A DNA stretch of 64,000 bases from Acidobacteriota bacterium. Its GTDB lineage: Bacteria > Acidobacteriota > Blastocatellia > Pyrinomonadales > Pyrinomonadaceae. Within the stretch, counting starts at the first letter, position 1; each line of letters starts with the position of its first letter. The notes below the pieces were generated by a model that was not told the origin of the DNA, searched no databases, and was given only the letters and a program-made list of their open reading frames with translations. A program made the position numbers and the translations under genes. Shown here one piece after another: positions 2,751-58,733 of this stretch. Location of the stretch: assembly GCA_020199835.1 (NCBI GenBank), contig JAIVJV010000011.1, positions 62,001 to 126,000 of the forward strand, given 5' to 3'.

Positions 2751-3740
2751 ATGACTCGGAGCGAGTTTCAATTCATCGATTCACTGCGCCAACGATTCGG
2801 TGCGGAGATCGGTGACGATGCGGCGATCTTTTCGAGCACCGCGGAAAAAGAGACGGTAATCACCACTGATCTGCTGGTCGAAGACATCGACTTTCGCCGC
2901 ACGACAGCGCCGCCGTTGCTGTTGGGCCATAAAGCACTCGCAGTTTCACTCTCCGATATCGCCGCGATGGGCGCGAGACCGCGCTGGTCGCTGGTTTCGA
3001 TCGGCGTGCCGGACGATGTTTGGCAGACTGGGTTTGTGGACCAGTTTTACGAAGGGCACGCCGGCATCGCGAGCCGTTATGACGTGCGCTTGATCGGCGG
3101 CGACACGTCGCGCACAACGGAACAGATCGTCATCGATTCAATTGTAGTTGGCGAATGTAATATCGGTCAGGCGGTGAAGCGTTGCGCCGCTGTGCCGGGC
3201 GATCAGATCTTCGTGACGGGGTCGCTCGGCGGCGCTGCCGCTGGCCTGCGACTCATCGAACGCGGCGCGCATCTCGCGGAACAGAAACTCGACGACGACG
3301 ACTCGCAAAAAATCGATCACGTACTGTTGCGCCAACTTCGGCCGGAACCGCGTGTCGGTTGGGGGATGGTGCTCGGCGAAGAACGTCTCGCGACTGCGAT
3401 GATCGACGTTAGCGACGGGCTTTCGTCAGACTTGAATCACTTGTGCACGGCGAGTGGCGTCGGTGCGTTGATCGAGTCATCGTTGCTGCCGATTGACCAG
3501 CAGGTCGTTGAATTGTGCGGCCGCCGCGCACTCGACCCGTTGCAACTCGCGTTGCACGGCGGGGAAGATTTTGAGCTGCTGTTTACGGTCCGCCCCGAGA
3601 ATGTTACCCGCCTGCCGCGCCGCGTCGACGGCACACAGATTACGCGGATTGGGGAAGTGCTGCTTCACACCGACGGCGTTCGCATTTCTGAAGGCTCCCG
3701 AATCTGGGAGCTAAACCCCGGCGGCTGGAAACATTTTTAG
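2751..3740 (+). CDS. thiL: Thiamine-monophosphate kinase
   Basis: ThiL phosphorylates thiamine monophosphate to the active cofactor thiamine diphosphate using ATP. The 329 residues show the family pattern: GDDAAIF near residue 21 (metal-binding Asp pair), TTDLLVEDIDF, then GHKALAVSLSDIAAMGARP, the signature of the AIR-synthase-like N-terminal domain. GGDTSRT and MIDVSDGLSSDL carry further Asp ligands, and GGEDFELLF lies near the C-terminus. The start ATG is 3 bases after the preceding aminotransferase stop, so translation is probably coupled. There is no thi biosynthesis gene nearby, so the gene placement looks like a housekeeping mixture and not a thiamine operon. Confidence 0.95.
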   Translation: MTRSEFQFIDSLRQRFGAEIGDDAAIFSSTAEKETVITTDLLVEDIDFRRTTAPPLLLGHKALAVSLSDIAAMGARPRWSLVSIGVPDDVWQTGFVDQFYEGHAGIASRYDVRLIGGDTSRTTEQIVIDSIVVGECNIGQAVKRCAAVPGDQIFVTGSLGGAAAGLRLIERGAHLAEQKLDDDDSQKIDHVLLRQLRPEPRVGWGMVLGEERLATAMIDVSDGLSSDLNHLCTASGVGALIESSLLPIDQQVVELCGRRALDPLQLALHGGEDFELLFTVRPENVTRLPRRVDGTQITRIGEVLLHTDGVRISEGSRIWELNPGGWKHF

Positions 3741-55316: not shown

Positions 55317-55727
55317 TCACCACTTCAGCAGATCGATTTCGTCTACCCAGATGGTTTCTTTATTGCGATAAAGCGCGATGACGATTCCGAGACCAATCGC
55401 GGCTTCTGCCGCGGCCACGACGATCACAAAGACGGTGAAGATCTGTCCGGCCAGCGCATTGACGCTGCCGGTCTCCTGCAAGTAGCGCGAGAACGCGACG
55501 AAGTTGAGATTCGCGGCGTTGAGTATCAGCTCGATCGACATGAAGATCACGATGATGTTGCGGCGCGTTAACACGCCGGCTACACCGATGATGAACAACA
55601 GCGCGCCGATGACCAGAAACTTCGACAGGTCCGGGTGCGTCGCTGCGTGCTTCATTTGCGCGAGGCGATCGTTCCCGACGACTTCCTGAAACAAGAACGC
55701 CAGAATCGGAATGAAAGAGTTGAGCAT
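55317..55727 (-). CDS. nuoK: NADH-quinone oxidoreductase subunit K
   Basis: 136 residues; the last 100 are standard Nuo[45 protein letters not shown], with the conserved Glu in the second helix, and [22 protein letters not shown] with the second Glu. An N-terminal extension of about 35 residues adds a hydrophobic start and HAATHPDL. It forms part of the central proton path in complex I. Only 1 base lies between its stop and the nuoL start; 3 bases separate it from nuoJ. Confidence 0.94.
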
Positions 55728-55730
55728 GTT

Positions 55731-56414
55731 TTATTCTGACTGTGGTTCCAACTTCGCTAGCTCGGAATCGCGCGCGATCTCTTCCTGCAAGAGCTCGGGG
55801 TCGACGTCGTCAGCCGACGCTTCCTGCTTGAGCGTGCGCGCGAGCATTACCGAACCGATGATGGCCACCAGCAACAGCACACTCGCGATCTCAAACGGCA
55901 ACGAGGCATAACGATAGAGACTGTTACCAACGGCTTCCGTGTCTTTGGTTATCATGCTCGTGCCGGTCGCACCCGGTGGACCAGTTTCGGTTGGGCGCGT
56001 CCCGGCGCCAAGGGCGTTTTCCGGTATCGGACGCGATTTCTGCAAACCGCGATAGCCTTCGTTGACTGCATACAACACGCCCGCGACAAGCAGAAAGCAG
56101 AAGATCAAACTCGCCGTCACTTGCCGCCGGTTGTTGAAGATCTCCTCCCGGCCGTGTTCCTCAGCGCCGACGTTGACGAGCATGATTACAAACAGAAACA
56201 GGACCATCACGCCGCCGACGTAAACGAGTATCTGCACGCCGGCGATGAACTCCGCGCCCGCGAGCACAAACAGCGCCGCGACGGAGACGAGCGACGAGAT
56301 CAGAAACAGCGCACTATGCACGGCATTGCGCGCCATCACCGTCAGCAGCGCGGCAAAGATCGCCGCCAGCGCGAAGATCCAGAAGAAGAGCGCTTCGTAG
56401 CCGGAGAGAATCAT
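55731..56414 (-). CDS. nuoJ: NADH-quinone oxidoreductase subunit J
   Basis: 227 residues, five membrane helices. FWIFALAAIFAALLTVMARNAVHSALFLISSLVSVAALFVLAGAEFIAGVQILVYVGGVMVLFLFVIMLV is typical NuoJ in the first half, including the pi-bulge helix with VYVGG. A C-terminal region of 60 residues between helices 4 and 5 is longer than in E. coli. The start ATG at 56414 lies inside the first unit of a 7-bp repeat array (56413-56446), which separates it from the upstream gene of unknown function. Its ribosome site must therefore lie in repeat sequence; none is evident. Confidence 0.93.
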   Translation of the reverse strand: MILSGYEALFFWIFALAAIFAALLTVMARNAVHSALFLISSLVSVAALFVLAGAEFIAGVQILVYVGGVMVLFLFVIMLVNVGAEEHGREEIFNNRRQVTASLIFCFLLVAGVLYAVNEGYRGLQKSRPIPENALGAGTRPTETGPPGATGTSMITKDTEAVGNSLYRYASLPFEIASVLLLVAIIGSVMLARTLKQEASADDVDPELLQEEIARDSELAKLEPQSE

Positions 56415-56446
56415 TGTCGATTGCCAATTGCCAATTGCCGATTGCG
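56413..56446 (+). repeat. Left array of 7-bp repeats flanking the four-helix-bundle gene
   Basis: Perfectly spaced units on the plus strand: ATTGTCG, ATTGCCA, ATTGCCA, ATTGCCG, ATTGCG. It begins in the nuoJ start codon. The same heptad appears inverted on the other side of the inner gene (56856-56886). Confidence 0.8.
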
Positions 56447-56452
56447 TTTCAT

Positions 56453-56815
56453 TTATCCGTTTCCTAAGTTAGAGCGGGCTGTGATGCGTGAGCTCGCCAT
56501 GATCCGAGTTAATTCGTTAGCCTCGTCCAGCAACGGCTGAACAAGCGTGGGCCTTAGTAGTGAACCTTCGATTATCAGCTCTAGCCAGAAAGCGCTTTCG
56601 TCCGCTTCTTCTTCAACTACTCCAAGCTTTGCAACGAACTCCGCTCTCGATCTACCTCTACACGCCGCTCGATAGTTTAACCCCACTGAGGTTCCCGCCC
56701 TGACCAGTTGACCAGCTATAGCTCTTCCTTGAGTACTCTTTGGTAAAGCGTCAACCAACTTTAAAATTCGCAGAGCGAACAGCTTGGTCCGCTTCTTCAA
56801 CTCGTCCGCGTCCAT
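56453..56815 (-). CDS. Four-helix-bundle protein (23S rRNA-intervening-sequence family) inside the nuo operon
   Basis: 120 residues from ATG 56815, with GGAGAC about 10 bases upstream. The text KLFALRILKLVDALPKSTQGRAIAGQLVRAGTSVGLNYRAACRGRSRAEFVAKLGVVEEEADESAFWLELI shows the whole family pattern: four amphipathic helices, the Pro-Lys turn, the Arg-Ala-Gly-Thr-Ser-Val-Asn-type loop and the Lys-x-Gly-x-x-x-x-Glu-Ala-x-Glu segment. Relatives were first found as insertions in 23S rRNA genes and resemble the accessory Avd proteins of diversity-generating retroelements. It sits between nuoI and nuoJ, is not a known complex I part, and is bordered by inverted heptad arrays. Likely an inserted cassette that keeps the operon's direction. 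Confidence 0.9.
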   Translation of the reverse strand: MDADELKKRTKLFALRILKLVDALPKSTQGRAIAGQLVRAGTSVGLNYRAACRGRSRAEFVAKLGVVEEEADESAFWLELIIEGSLLRPTLVQPLLDEANELTRIMASSRITARSNLGNG

Positions 56816-56855
56816 GACGTGAGGTCTCCAATGAACGCCCAGCTTGATGCCAAAT

Positions 56856-56886
56856 TGGCAATCGGAAATCGGCAATCGCCAATGCC
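56856..56886 (-). repeat. Right array of 7-bp repeats, inverted relative to the left one
   Basis: Read on the minus strand from the nuoI stop: GGC, then ATTGGCG, ATTGCCG, ATTTCCG, ATTGCCA, with a decayed fifth unit. It starts on the base after the nuoI stop codon. Both arrays read inward to the four-helix-bundle gene. Confidence 0.8.
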
Positions 56887-57420
56887 CTAGCTTGTGTACT
56901 TCACGGTTTCCCGGCCCTGCTCGAGCATCTCGCGATTCCAGACGAAGCCGGCGCGCGAATACGTCGCCAGCTCGAACTCCTGCGTCAGCTCCAGACAAGC
57001 CGTCGGGCATGCTTCCTGACACAACGCGCAGAACATGCAACGCGAAGTGTCAAAGATAAACTCGTCGAGCACTTTCTTGCGGCGCGGTTTGCCGGCGACG
57101 ATGATCTCGACGTCCATTGCAATCACGTCGATGCAATCTTCGGGACAGGCAATCGCGCAAAGATTACAAGCAATGCAAAGCGTGTCGTGCGTTTCCGGAT
57201 CCATGTTCAAACGCGGCGCGCCATGAAAACGCGGCGCGACGTCCGGACGCACTTTAGGATACTGCTCGGTGTAGATTCCCTTGCCTGCGACCGAGTCTTT
57301 ATCCGTGATCGCGCCGATGTTGTATTTCAACGTGAGCCCGAGTCCTTTGATCAGATCGATCATGAAGAATCGTTTCAGCTTTTGGGACCACGTCGGTTTT
57401 GGAGTTTTCACTAACGGCAT
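56887..57420 (-). CDS. nuoI: NADH-quinone oxidoreductase subunit I (ferredoxin-type)
   Basis: 177 residues. Two 4Fe-4S sites of CxxCxxCxxxCP type are complete: Cys82, 85, 88, 92 and Cys128, 131, 134, 138. The first contributes to cluster N6a, the second to N6b. It links electron flow to the membrane arm close to the quinone site. The N-terminal helix LIKGLGLTLKYNIG is the usual membrane-surface helix. The stop TAG at 56889-56887 is followed immediately by the repeat array. Start 5 bases after nuoH. Confidence 0.96.
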   Translation of the reverse strand: MPLVKTPKPTWSQKLKRFFMIDLIKGLGLTLKYNIGAITDKDSVAGKGIYTEQYPKVRPDVAPRFHGAPRLNMDPETHDTLCIACNLCAIACPEDCIDVIAMDVEIIVAGKPRRKKVLDEFIFDTSRCMFCALCQEACPTACLELTQEFELATYSRAGFVWNREMLEQGRETVKYTS

Positions 57421-57425
57421 TGGAA

Positions 57426-58733
57426 CTACACCTCACTTACGGAAACTGCCGGTTTGCCTTTTGGCAAATTCACTAACCTGATATTGCGCCGCTGGGTCTT
57501 CAAATTGAAGTCGCGCGAACGCCAGTTGATGCGGGCAAGCAGCGCTGCGATGATAAACACGCCCGCGAAGCCAATCACGATCATTATCCCTTTGCCGGTC
57601 GCCGTCAGGTTCAAGCCGCGATCGAGCGATTCGATCGTTCTCATTCCGCGGTAACCGTTCAGCGCCTGCACCAGGAAAATCGCAATTGCCGACAATGCGA
57701 TGTTGATCAGCGCGGACGGAATCAACCACTTCCAGCCGATGTCCATCAACTGGTCGTAACGGAAACGCGGCAAGGTCCAACGCAACCAGAAATAGATGTA
57801 AAGAATAATTGAAACCTTAACCAAAAACACCAGCAGGCTGACGATCACGTACAGGTTGTGATACCCGGCCGTCTCCAGCCGGTAGACAAACGGAAAGTAC
57901 CAGCCGCCCAGATACACGGTCGCCGCCACGGCGGAAACAACCACCATCGCCGCGTATTCGGCCATGAAAAACAACGACCAGCGCATGCCGGAGTATTCGG
58001 TGTGGAAACCCGCGACGAGTTCTGACTCCGCTTCCGGCAGATCAAACGGCGCGCGATTGTTCTCGGCGATGCCGCTGATCAGAAACAGCATAAAACCCGC
58101 GGGTTGATACAGGATGAACCAAATCGAATCCGACCCTTGCGCGCCGACAATGCCCGAAAGCGACAACGTGCGCGCAAACATCAACGCGCCGATCAGCGAG
58201 AGTCCCATCGCAACTTCGTACGAGACCATCTGCGCGCTCGAACGCAAACCACCGAGCAGCGCGTATTTCGAATTAGACGACCAGCCGGCAAGAATTAAGG
58301 CCAGCACGCCCACGCTCGAAACCGCCAGCACCAGCAACAGACCGATATTGACGTCGGCGATCACCGCCCAGTCCGGTCCAAACGGAACCACGGAAAAAAC
58401 TATAAAGGCCGATGCCACGGCGATGTATGGCGCGAAAAAGAAGATCCAGCGATCAGCTTTCTCGGGAATAAAGTCTTCTTTAGTCAGCAGCTTGAGACCG
58501 TCGGCGATGGGTTGCAACAGTCCCCATGGCCCAACGCGCATCGGCCCAAGACGCGCCTGCATGAAGGCGGAAATCTTTCGCTCGAGATACGTCGCGTACG
58601 CCACCCAGAGCGCGACCAGAGTAACGACCAGGCCGATCTGAATCAGCGGCCAGATGAAAAAGTTGATCGTTTCCTGGCTGAAGAATCTCAGCAAAAGATC
58701 GTTAAGGACGTTTACCGGACCAAGAAGCAGCAT
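57426..58733 (-). CDS. nuoH: NADH-quinone oxidoreductase subunit H
   Basis: 435 residues, somewhat longer than usual, with eight or nine membrane helices. AYATYLERKISAFMQARLGPMRVGPWGLLQPIADGLKLLTKEDFIPEKAD is the quinone-site signature with conserved Glu and Arg. ENNRAPFDLPEAESELVAGFHTEYSGMRWSLFFMAEYA is the second hallmark. RWTLPRFRYDQLMDIGWKWLIP closes it. It forms the quinone chamber together with NuoB and NuoD. The gap to nuoD is 3 bases. Confidence 0.96.
   Translation of the reverse strand: MLLLGPVNVLNDLLLRFFSQETINFFIWPLIQIGLVVTLVALWVAYATYLERKISAFMQARLGPMRVGPWGLLQPIADGLKLLTKEDFIPEKADRWIFFFAPYIAVASAFIVFSVVPFGPDWAVIADVNIGLLLVLAVSSVGVLALILAGWSSNSKYALLGGLRSSAQMVSYEVAMGLSLIGALMFARTLSLSGIVGAQGSDSIWFILYQPAGFMLFLISGIAENNRAPFDLPEAESELVAGFHTEYSGMRWSLFFMAEYAAMVVVSAVAATVYLGGWYFPFVYRLETAGYHNLYVIVSLLVFLVKVSIILYIYFWLRWTLPRFRYDQLMDIGWKWLIPSALINIALSAIAIFLVQALNGYRGMRTIESLDRGLNLTATGKGIMIVIGFAGVFIIAALLARINWRSRDFNLKTQRRNIRLVNLPKGKPAVSVSEV

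Follow-up and report, generated by a model that had tools for sequence, protein, structure and literature searches.

A small gene lodged in the complex I operon of an Acidobacteriota bacterium is enclosed by two inverted arrays of a 7-nucleotide word, and gene and arrays together form a compact element that very probably belongs to a widespread kind of small mobile element. We analyzed this element within a 64,000-nucleotide stretch of contig JAIVJV010000011.1, hereafter the window, and compared it with loci in relatives and in distant phyla. The gene belongs to the IVP/S23 proteins, which have been annotated for decades and for which we know of no function. Bacterial intergenic heptanucleotide repeats have been attributed to slippage or left open. 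We join the two as parts of one mobile element, and the data point to an overlooked class of such elements without a known transposase. The main addition to the earlier reading of this DNA is that the heptad, judged by sequence comparison, is specific to the protein.

An earlier note, made from the letters alone, described a non-complex-I gene between nuoI and nuoJ flanked by inverted arrays of ATTGCCR heptads at 7-bp spacing. Both observations stand. The list of open reading frames places a minus-strand gene of 120 codons between the nuoI stop and the nuoJ start, and its product, P0001, matches PF05635 (E=1.2e-13; 51.7 bits against a curated cut-off of 33.8) and TIGR02436 (E=6e-21; 74.7 bits against 24). 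Five anchors per arm can be read directly: ATT at 56413, 56420, 56427, 56434, and 56441 in the left arm, and AAT at 56853, 56860, 56867, 56874, and 56881 in the inverted right arm, with a spacing of exactly 7 bp in each (Table 1). The note also pictured a compact, insertable unit of about 470 bp that carries a helical protein, lacks a transposase, and has spared its neighbors; the measured element is 471 bp, and both neighbors are intact. As to where the arrays start, the left one does run into the nuoJ start codon, but the right one, placed by the note on the base after the nuoI stop, lies 3 nt (56884-56886) from that codon.

Table 1. Features of the IVP element and its neighbors (window coordinates)
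Feature	Position	Strand	Evidence
IVP / S23 four-helix-bundle gene, 120 aa (P0001)	56453..56815	-	PF05635, TIGR02436; AlphaFold2 model; fold matches
Left (nuoJ-side) arm, five ATT anchors (ATTGTCG ATTGCCA ATTGCCA ATTGCCG ATT)	56413..56443	+	direct reading; tandem repeat call; inverted partner and genome-wide family
Right (nuoI-side) arm, five anchors (minus strand ATTGGCG ATTGCCG ATTTCCG ATTGCCA ATT)	56853..56883	-	direct reading; tandem repeat call
GGAG, probable ribosome-binding site, 10 nt before IVP start codon	56826..56829	-	direct reading; inference
Whole element, 471 bp	56413..56883	-	arm borders; relatives at same site; RNA fold
nuoJ, intact neighbor, start codon/arm overlap 2 nt	55731..56414	-	ORF list
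nuoI, intact neighbor, stop codon 3 nt from arm	56887..57420	-	ORF list

The arms are not a product of chance, because three lines of evidence agree: both are Tandem Repeats Finder calls, their ungapped inverted identity (22/34) exceeds that of 20,000 pairs of places drawn at random from the window (mean 11.6, maximum 21), and the genome-wide search for ATTGCC arrays described below far outnumbers its reversed control. In the predicted RNA fold, the arms pair as a stem that closes the IVP reading frame. The IVP is the only gene between them, with no second gene or transposase inside the element, and an Rfam search of 55700-57500 returned no match.

The AlphaFold2 model of P0001 consists of four helices (pLDDT 95.5). 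Its best fold matches are chains A-E of 2RLD and 2GSC, and it also matches Avd (4DWL) and the Avd of the DGR ribonucleoprotein 8UB7. The five chains in each of the crystal entries 2RLD, 2GSC, and 4DWL suggest that P0001 is a pentamer; with five chains matching five heptads per arm, one subunit may serve each heptad. Positions Q36, S43, N47, and E73 are at least 95% conserved in both IVP subfamilies, and R39 at least 86%; no recognized catalytic domain was found in P0001.

The architecture recurs widely. We sampled 80 IVP loci from Acidobacteriota, Verrucomicrobiota, Lentisphaerota, Thermodesulfobacteriota, Cloacimonadota, Patescibacteria, Chloroflexota, Planctomycetota, Bacteroidota, and others, and period-7 arrays were present in 129/160 of their flanks, against 9/160 control flanks 900 bp away; periods 4-6 and 8-13 gave 0-7 in the same flanks. 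A larger set of 187 IVPs from two subfamilies, the canonical Pfam one included, repeats this result: 85 + 83 of 101 and 60 + 62 of 86 have arrays (control flanks, 2 + 3 and 1 + 8), with about 15-30% of the flanks devoid of an array by the period-7 test. The two arms of one locus are inverted copies of each other, with a similarity of 0.805 compared with 0.500 as direct repeats and 0.513 to other loci. The number of anchors per arm peaks at five in the P0001 subfamily (37/72 left, 29/72 right) and spreads from 4 to 6 in the canonical subfamily, and the median element length over 127 loci is 484 bp. A search for 23S-resident copies in 16 IVP loci, whose arms are for the most part weak or missing, gave no rRNA match.

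The letters of the heptad vary strongly between elements: the twelve armed IVPs of a single genome (G100) carry about ten words. The repeat letters are not a fixed border; they change from element to element together with the protein. The more identical two IVPs are, the more similar are their heptads (Spearman 0.448; the largest value in 200 Mantel permutations was 0.071), and the relation is alike for pairs within one genome, within one family, and across phyla, so host phylogeny does not explain it. Among 51 IVPs that share a genome with other IVPs, 50 have a nearest relative in another genome whose heptad is closer to theirs than those of the IVPs in their own genome (0.735 vs 0.445). On these comparisons, the heptad follows the IVP protein and not the host. 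At the level of residues, the E68 column ranks first or second for covariation in each of two subfamilies and lies above the permutation 95% limit in both; other covarying columns are R55 in one subfamily and D72/A71/W77 in the other. Within the P0001 subfamily, the base that precedes ATT is mostly G where residue 55 is R and mostly T where it is Q. This pairing resembles a base-reading contact and is offered as a lead only, and the residue-level covariation may be partly phylogenetic.

Arrays of this kind, which the earlier note had proposed to look for, are common elsewhere in the window genome. A pattern of three ATTGCC units, allowing up to two mismatches, has 64 matches in 4.87 Mb, while the reversed-pattern control has 0; most matches form inverted pairs around a short unrelated spacer. 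A scan without fixed letters detected 10 inverted period-7 pairs in 1.26 Mb; inverted pairs at periods 5, 6, 8, 9, 10, and 11 numbered 0, 0, 1, 1, 0, and 0, and there were no direct pairs of period 7. A strict array threshold overlooked degenerate arms, and the coding/intergenic split obtained with it is left out of the results, as the greedy ORF mask labeled 93% as coding. The note had also proposed a search for further heptad-flanked copies of the gene; the genome (83% complete) holds a single IVP gene, and the other heptad pairs are therefore without one. Anchors per arm in the IVP-less ATTGCC pairs again peak at five (9/13 and 7/13), and these pairs look non-autonomous. A second heptad family, ACTTTGT, occurs in the window genome (C12 and C16) as inverted pairs without an IVP of their own; IVPs of the ACTTTGT type are found in G094 and G098, of the same genus. 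A further genome of this genus (G088, an 88% complete MAG) has 62 ATTGCC array matches, and an IVP gene was not found in it, as if the short pairs had outlived their carrier.

Different heptad pairs recur in the spacer between nuoI and nuoJ. Across 30 members of the family, window genome included, an IVP with ATTGCCR arms occupies this spacer in the window genome and seven others; at one locus (L202) a different IVP, 39% identical, is present with TGATGAA arms. Spacers also hold IVP-less inverted pairs of many different heptads, one (L182) has a single-arm remnant, and one (L197) is an empty junction in which the nuoI TGA overlaps the nuoJ ATG. Empty sites, which the earlier note had proposed to look for in relatives, are thus present at this joint, besides other heptad pairs and another IVP. 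That note had named two contrary outcomes: the same gene at the same place in distant relatives without repeats, and a genome with no other arrays together with relatives lacking empty sites. Both were looked for, and neither was found. In one spacer (L181, in G098), a TCAGTAG-type pair lies nested within an AGCTTTG-type pair, as if one element had inserted into another.

IVPs at nuoI-nuoJ make up most of one clade of the IVP tree. The same clade includes two loci of one MAG assembly, L101 at nuoI-nuoJ and L107 between nuoA and nuoB, and a member sited elsewhere (L106). Changes of site on this tree overstate insertions, as L094 (from G113, the genome of the nuoI-nuoJ locus L194) and L141 were not labeled as nuoI-nuoJ; at L141, nuoI precedes the IVP and nuoJ follows it. 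At L099, the gene upstream of the IVP (at 3001) is the end of FabH, and nuoJ follows, giving the contig order fabH-IVP-nuoJ; this join could be a recombination between two element copies or a misassembly. On a Bernardetia plasmid (L343), an IVP directly follows a FabH gene.

Insertion polymorphism at the strain level, which extends the empty-site comparison beyond the family, is seen on cyanobacterial plasmids. Trichormus and Scytonema plasmids carry an IVP at a place where the plasmids of Nostoc and Aulosira, which share about 98% identity with them, read uninterrupted as ..AAAAAGTAATTAACAAATAAATATG.., and (G)TAAT stands on both sides of the insert. At exactly this insertion site, a Brasilonema plasmid has an IVP-less arm pair; a Nostoc plasmid has a truncated IVP at the site. 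Three further plasmids (H88, H90, and H91) match the element alone, at 78-82% identity, at unrelated sites. On Calothrix plasmids, the element lies where only a few bases would separate a stop codon from a start codon, and the place is uninterrupted in Tolypothrix, Aulosira, and Nostoc relatives. RNR genes of Nostoc and Calothrix provide another empty-site comparison, in which TTAG flanks the insert less exactly than at the (G)TAAT site. Candidate target-site duplications are (G)TAAT at the one exact site and possibly TTAG as a second; across 80 loci, flanking direct repeats show no excess (33 vs 40.3 expected for 4-mers).

What can be observed, then, is an architecture that recurs across phyla, insertion at operon joints that spares both neighbors, insertion polymorphism, occurrence at unrelated sites, and covariation of heptad and protein. 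As an explanation of the whole, we favor, with moderate confidence, a mobile element whose own IVP pentamer recognizes its arms; the recognition and the chemistry of movement, we infer. The element would consist of the IVP gene and two inverted arms, each of about five repeats of a 7-nt word matched to its own IVP. Recognition of its own heptads by the IVP is the step we consider likely. An IVP homopentamer would bind an arm with one subunit per heptad, most easily when the arm is single-stranded RNA or DNA, since five 7-nt units can wrap a five-fold ring. The heptad recognition would make mobile both the element and the IVP-less arm pairs, which may be non-autonomous or internally deleted forms; cutting, joining, or copying would fall to host enzymes or to an activity outside those so far recognized. 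For the IVP as the mobility factor itself, we see an even chance. The fullest version is more tentative still: a kingdom-wide mobile class without transposase, reverse transcriptase, or known recombinase, in which a pentameric bundle of 120-residue subunits recognizes the five-heptad ends of its own element, one subunit per heptad.

The main rival shares the first step, heptad recognition, and departs from there. In it, the IVP pentamer binds the five heptads of its own 5' leader, as TRAP binds its repeats, and this self-regulating RNA-binding cassette would control its own or its neighbors' expression or the processing of their mRNA, while spreading passively by host recombination and gene transfer. 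One arm does lie in the leader just before the start codon; the arms pair as an RNA stem around the reading frame, like the RNase III-processed stem described for the Coxiella intervening sequence (PMC4990558); Avd, of the same fold, is part of the ribonucleoprotein 8UB7; and covariation needs recognition only, not mobility. By itself, however, such a cassette leaves unexplained why one element occurs at unrelated sites with the arms as its borders, the many IVP-less pairs, and the recurrence of different heptad pairs in one spacer, and we regard it as unlikely, if worth keeping in view. A movement through RNA is a good deal less probable: a hairpin transcript would be copied to DNA by a reverse transcriptase acting in trans, with the IVP as an Avd-like chaperone, which would suit the fold common to IVP, Avd, and the DGR ribonucleoprotein, the pairing of the arms in RNA, and the lack of a general target-site duplication. 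RVT_1 searches gave no match in the window genome, in G086 (8 IVPs), in G095 (7), or in G098 (3), and this argues only weakly against an enzyme in trans, because the genomes searched are incomplete MAGs. That the heptads arose by polymerase slippage with the IVP gene incidental is barely credible and already contradicted by the inverted pairing and the covariation: heptanucleotides are the commonest long simple repeat in the majority of genomes that one survey covered, and slippage has been proposed for them (Mrazek 2007, as cited in PMC4679880), and one Planktothrix stretch varies by about 37 bp between strains, but slippage makes no inverted partner arrays, gives no narrow unit number, and does not yield heptads that follow a protein across phyla.

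Several known systems resemble a mobile element with IVP-matched arms in part. Intervening sequences with an S23/IVP reading frame, 428-444 nt long, occur in the 23S rRNA of Coxiella, Leptospira, Xanthomonas, and Brucella; that of Coxiella has a closing stem of about 28 bp around the frame, preceded by tandem GACAGAT heptamers whose number varies between strains, and the account of it names transposition as one hypothesis of its origin (PMC4990558). They share with the present elements the protein family, a similar size (428-444 nt vs 471), complementary stem-forming ends around the frame, and heptamers before it. In contrast, the present elements lie between protein-coding genes in many operons, have dispersed IVP-less arm pairs and heptads matched to the protein, and show insertion polymorphism. 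The window copy is not a 23S intervening sequence, as it lies outside an rRNA gene; its architecture is the same, and 23S intervening sequences look like special cases of the general element.

The STRRs of cyanobacteria are 7-bp repeats that form hairpins and lie between genes, hupS and hupL among them, with function given as unknown (PMC2670836), and evolutionary transposition is listed as a possible origin of repeats of this type (PMC2408588). The Planktothrix, Nostoc, Calothrix, and other IVP loci are like them in 7-bp units and intergenic hairpins, a likeness of architecture only; the STRR descriptions, as far as the consulted parts of PMC2670836 and PMC2408588 go, draw no link to an IVP, whereas the arrays of cyanobacterial plasmid IVP loci are paired arms. 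STRRs would probably be special cases of the general element as well. The TAACTGA heptamers of Beggiatoaceae are intergenic tandem repeats, often before start codons; unlike the present arms, they are described as direct repeats, and the consulted part of PMC4679880 does not mention an S23 or four-helix protein.

REP/REPIN sequences with RAYT, and MITEs, are many short palindromic non-autonomous copies beside a carrier gene. The present element appears to work in a like manner, through short non-autonomous copies and a carrier gene; it differs in having no HUH or DDE transposase and in arms that are period-7 arrays of variable letters. With the IVP as the sole gene between the arms, it lacks the transposase that would place it among insertion sequences or transposons. 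Avd of DGRs has the same fold and five chains in 4DWL; unlike a DGR that carries Avd, the window genome yields no reverse transcriptase by RVT_1 search. Earlier work bears on the repeat borders, which the previous note thought might be undescribed: an account of IVP with heptad arms as a general element was not found in the open-access literature searched (subscription papers and preprints fall mostly outside it), but heptamers before an S23 frame (PMC4990558) and 7-bp hairpin STRRs (PMC2670836) are already known.

A kingdom-wide class of this kind, if true, would bring IVP genes, 23S intervening sequences, many intergenic heptanucleotide arrays, and STRRs under one explanation, and the pairing of protein and heptad would form a recognition code that can be read. 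IVP function becomes testable, as a target word is predicted for each protein. If each subunit of the pentamer reads one heptad, natural protein-heptad pairs would already supply the specificity code of a very small ring that binds nucleic acid.

Some plasmid loci have further features. On plasmid pANA02 of Anabaena sp. 90 (L345), an IVP element with long GGTGACA arrays is inserted in a type I-D CRISPR operon, with cas6 on one side and cas4 on the other; a comparison with L352 was rejected as a clean empty site, as the other plasmid carries unrelated sequence there. On a Planktothrix agardhii plasmid (L334), very long mixed arrays of CCCCAAT and CGTAAAT types surround an IVP in the stretch 2895-3535. 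The neighbors of this IVP are DISARM drmD and an MmeI-like gene, and two other Planktothrix strains have a version of the stretch that is shorter by about 37 bp.
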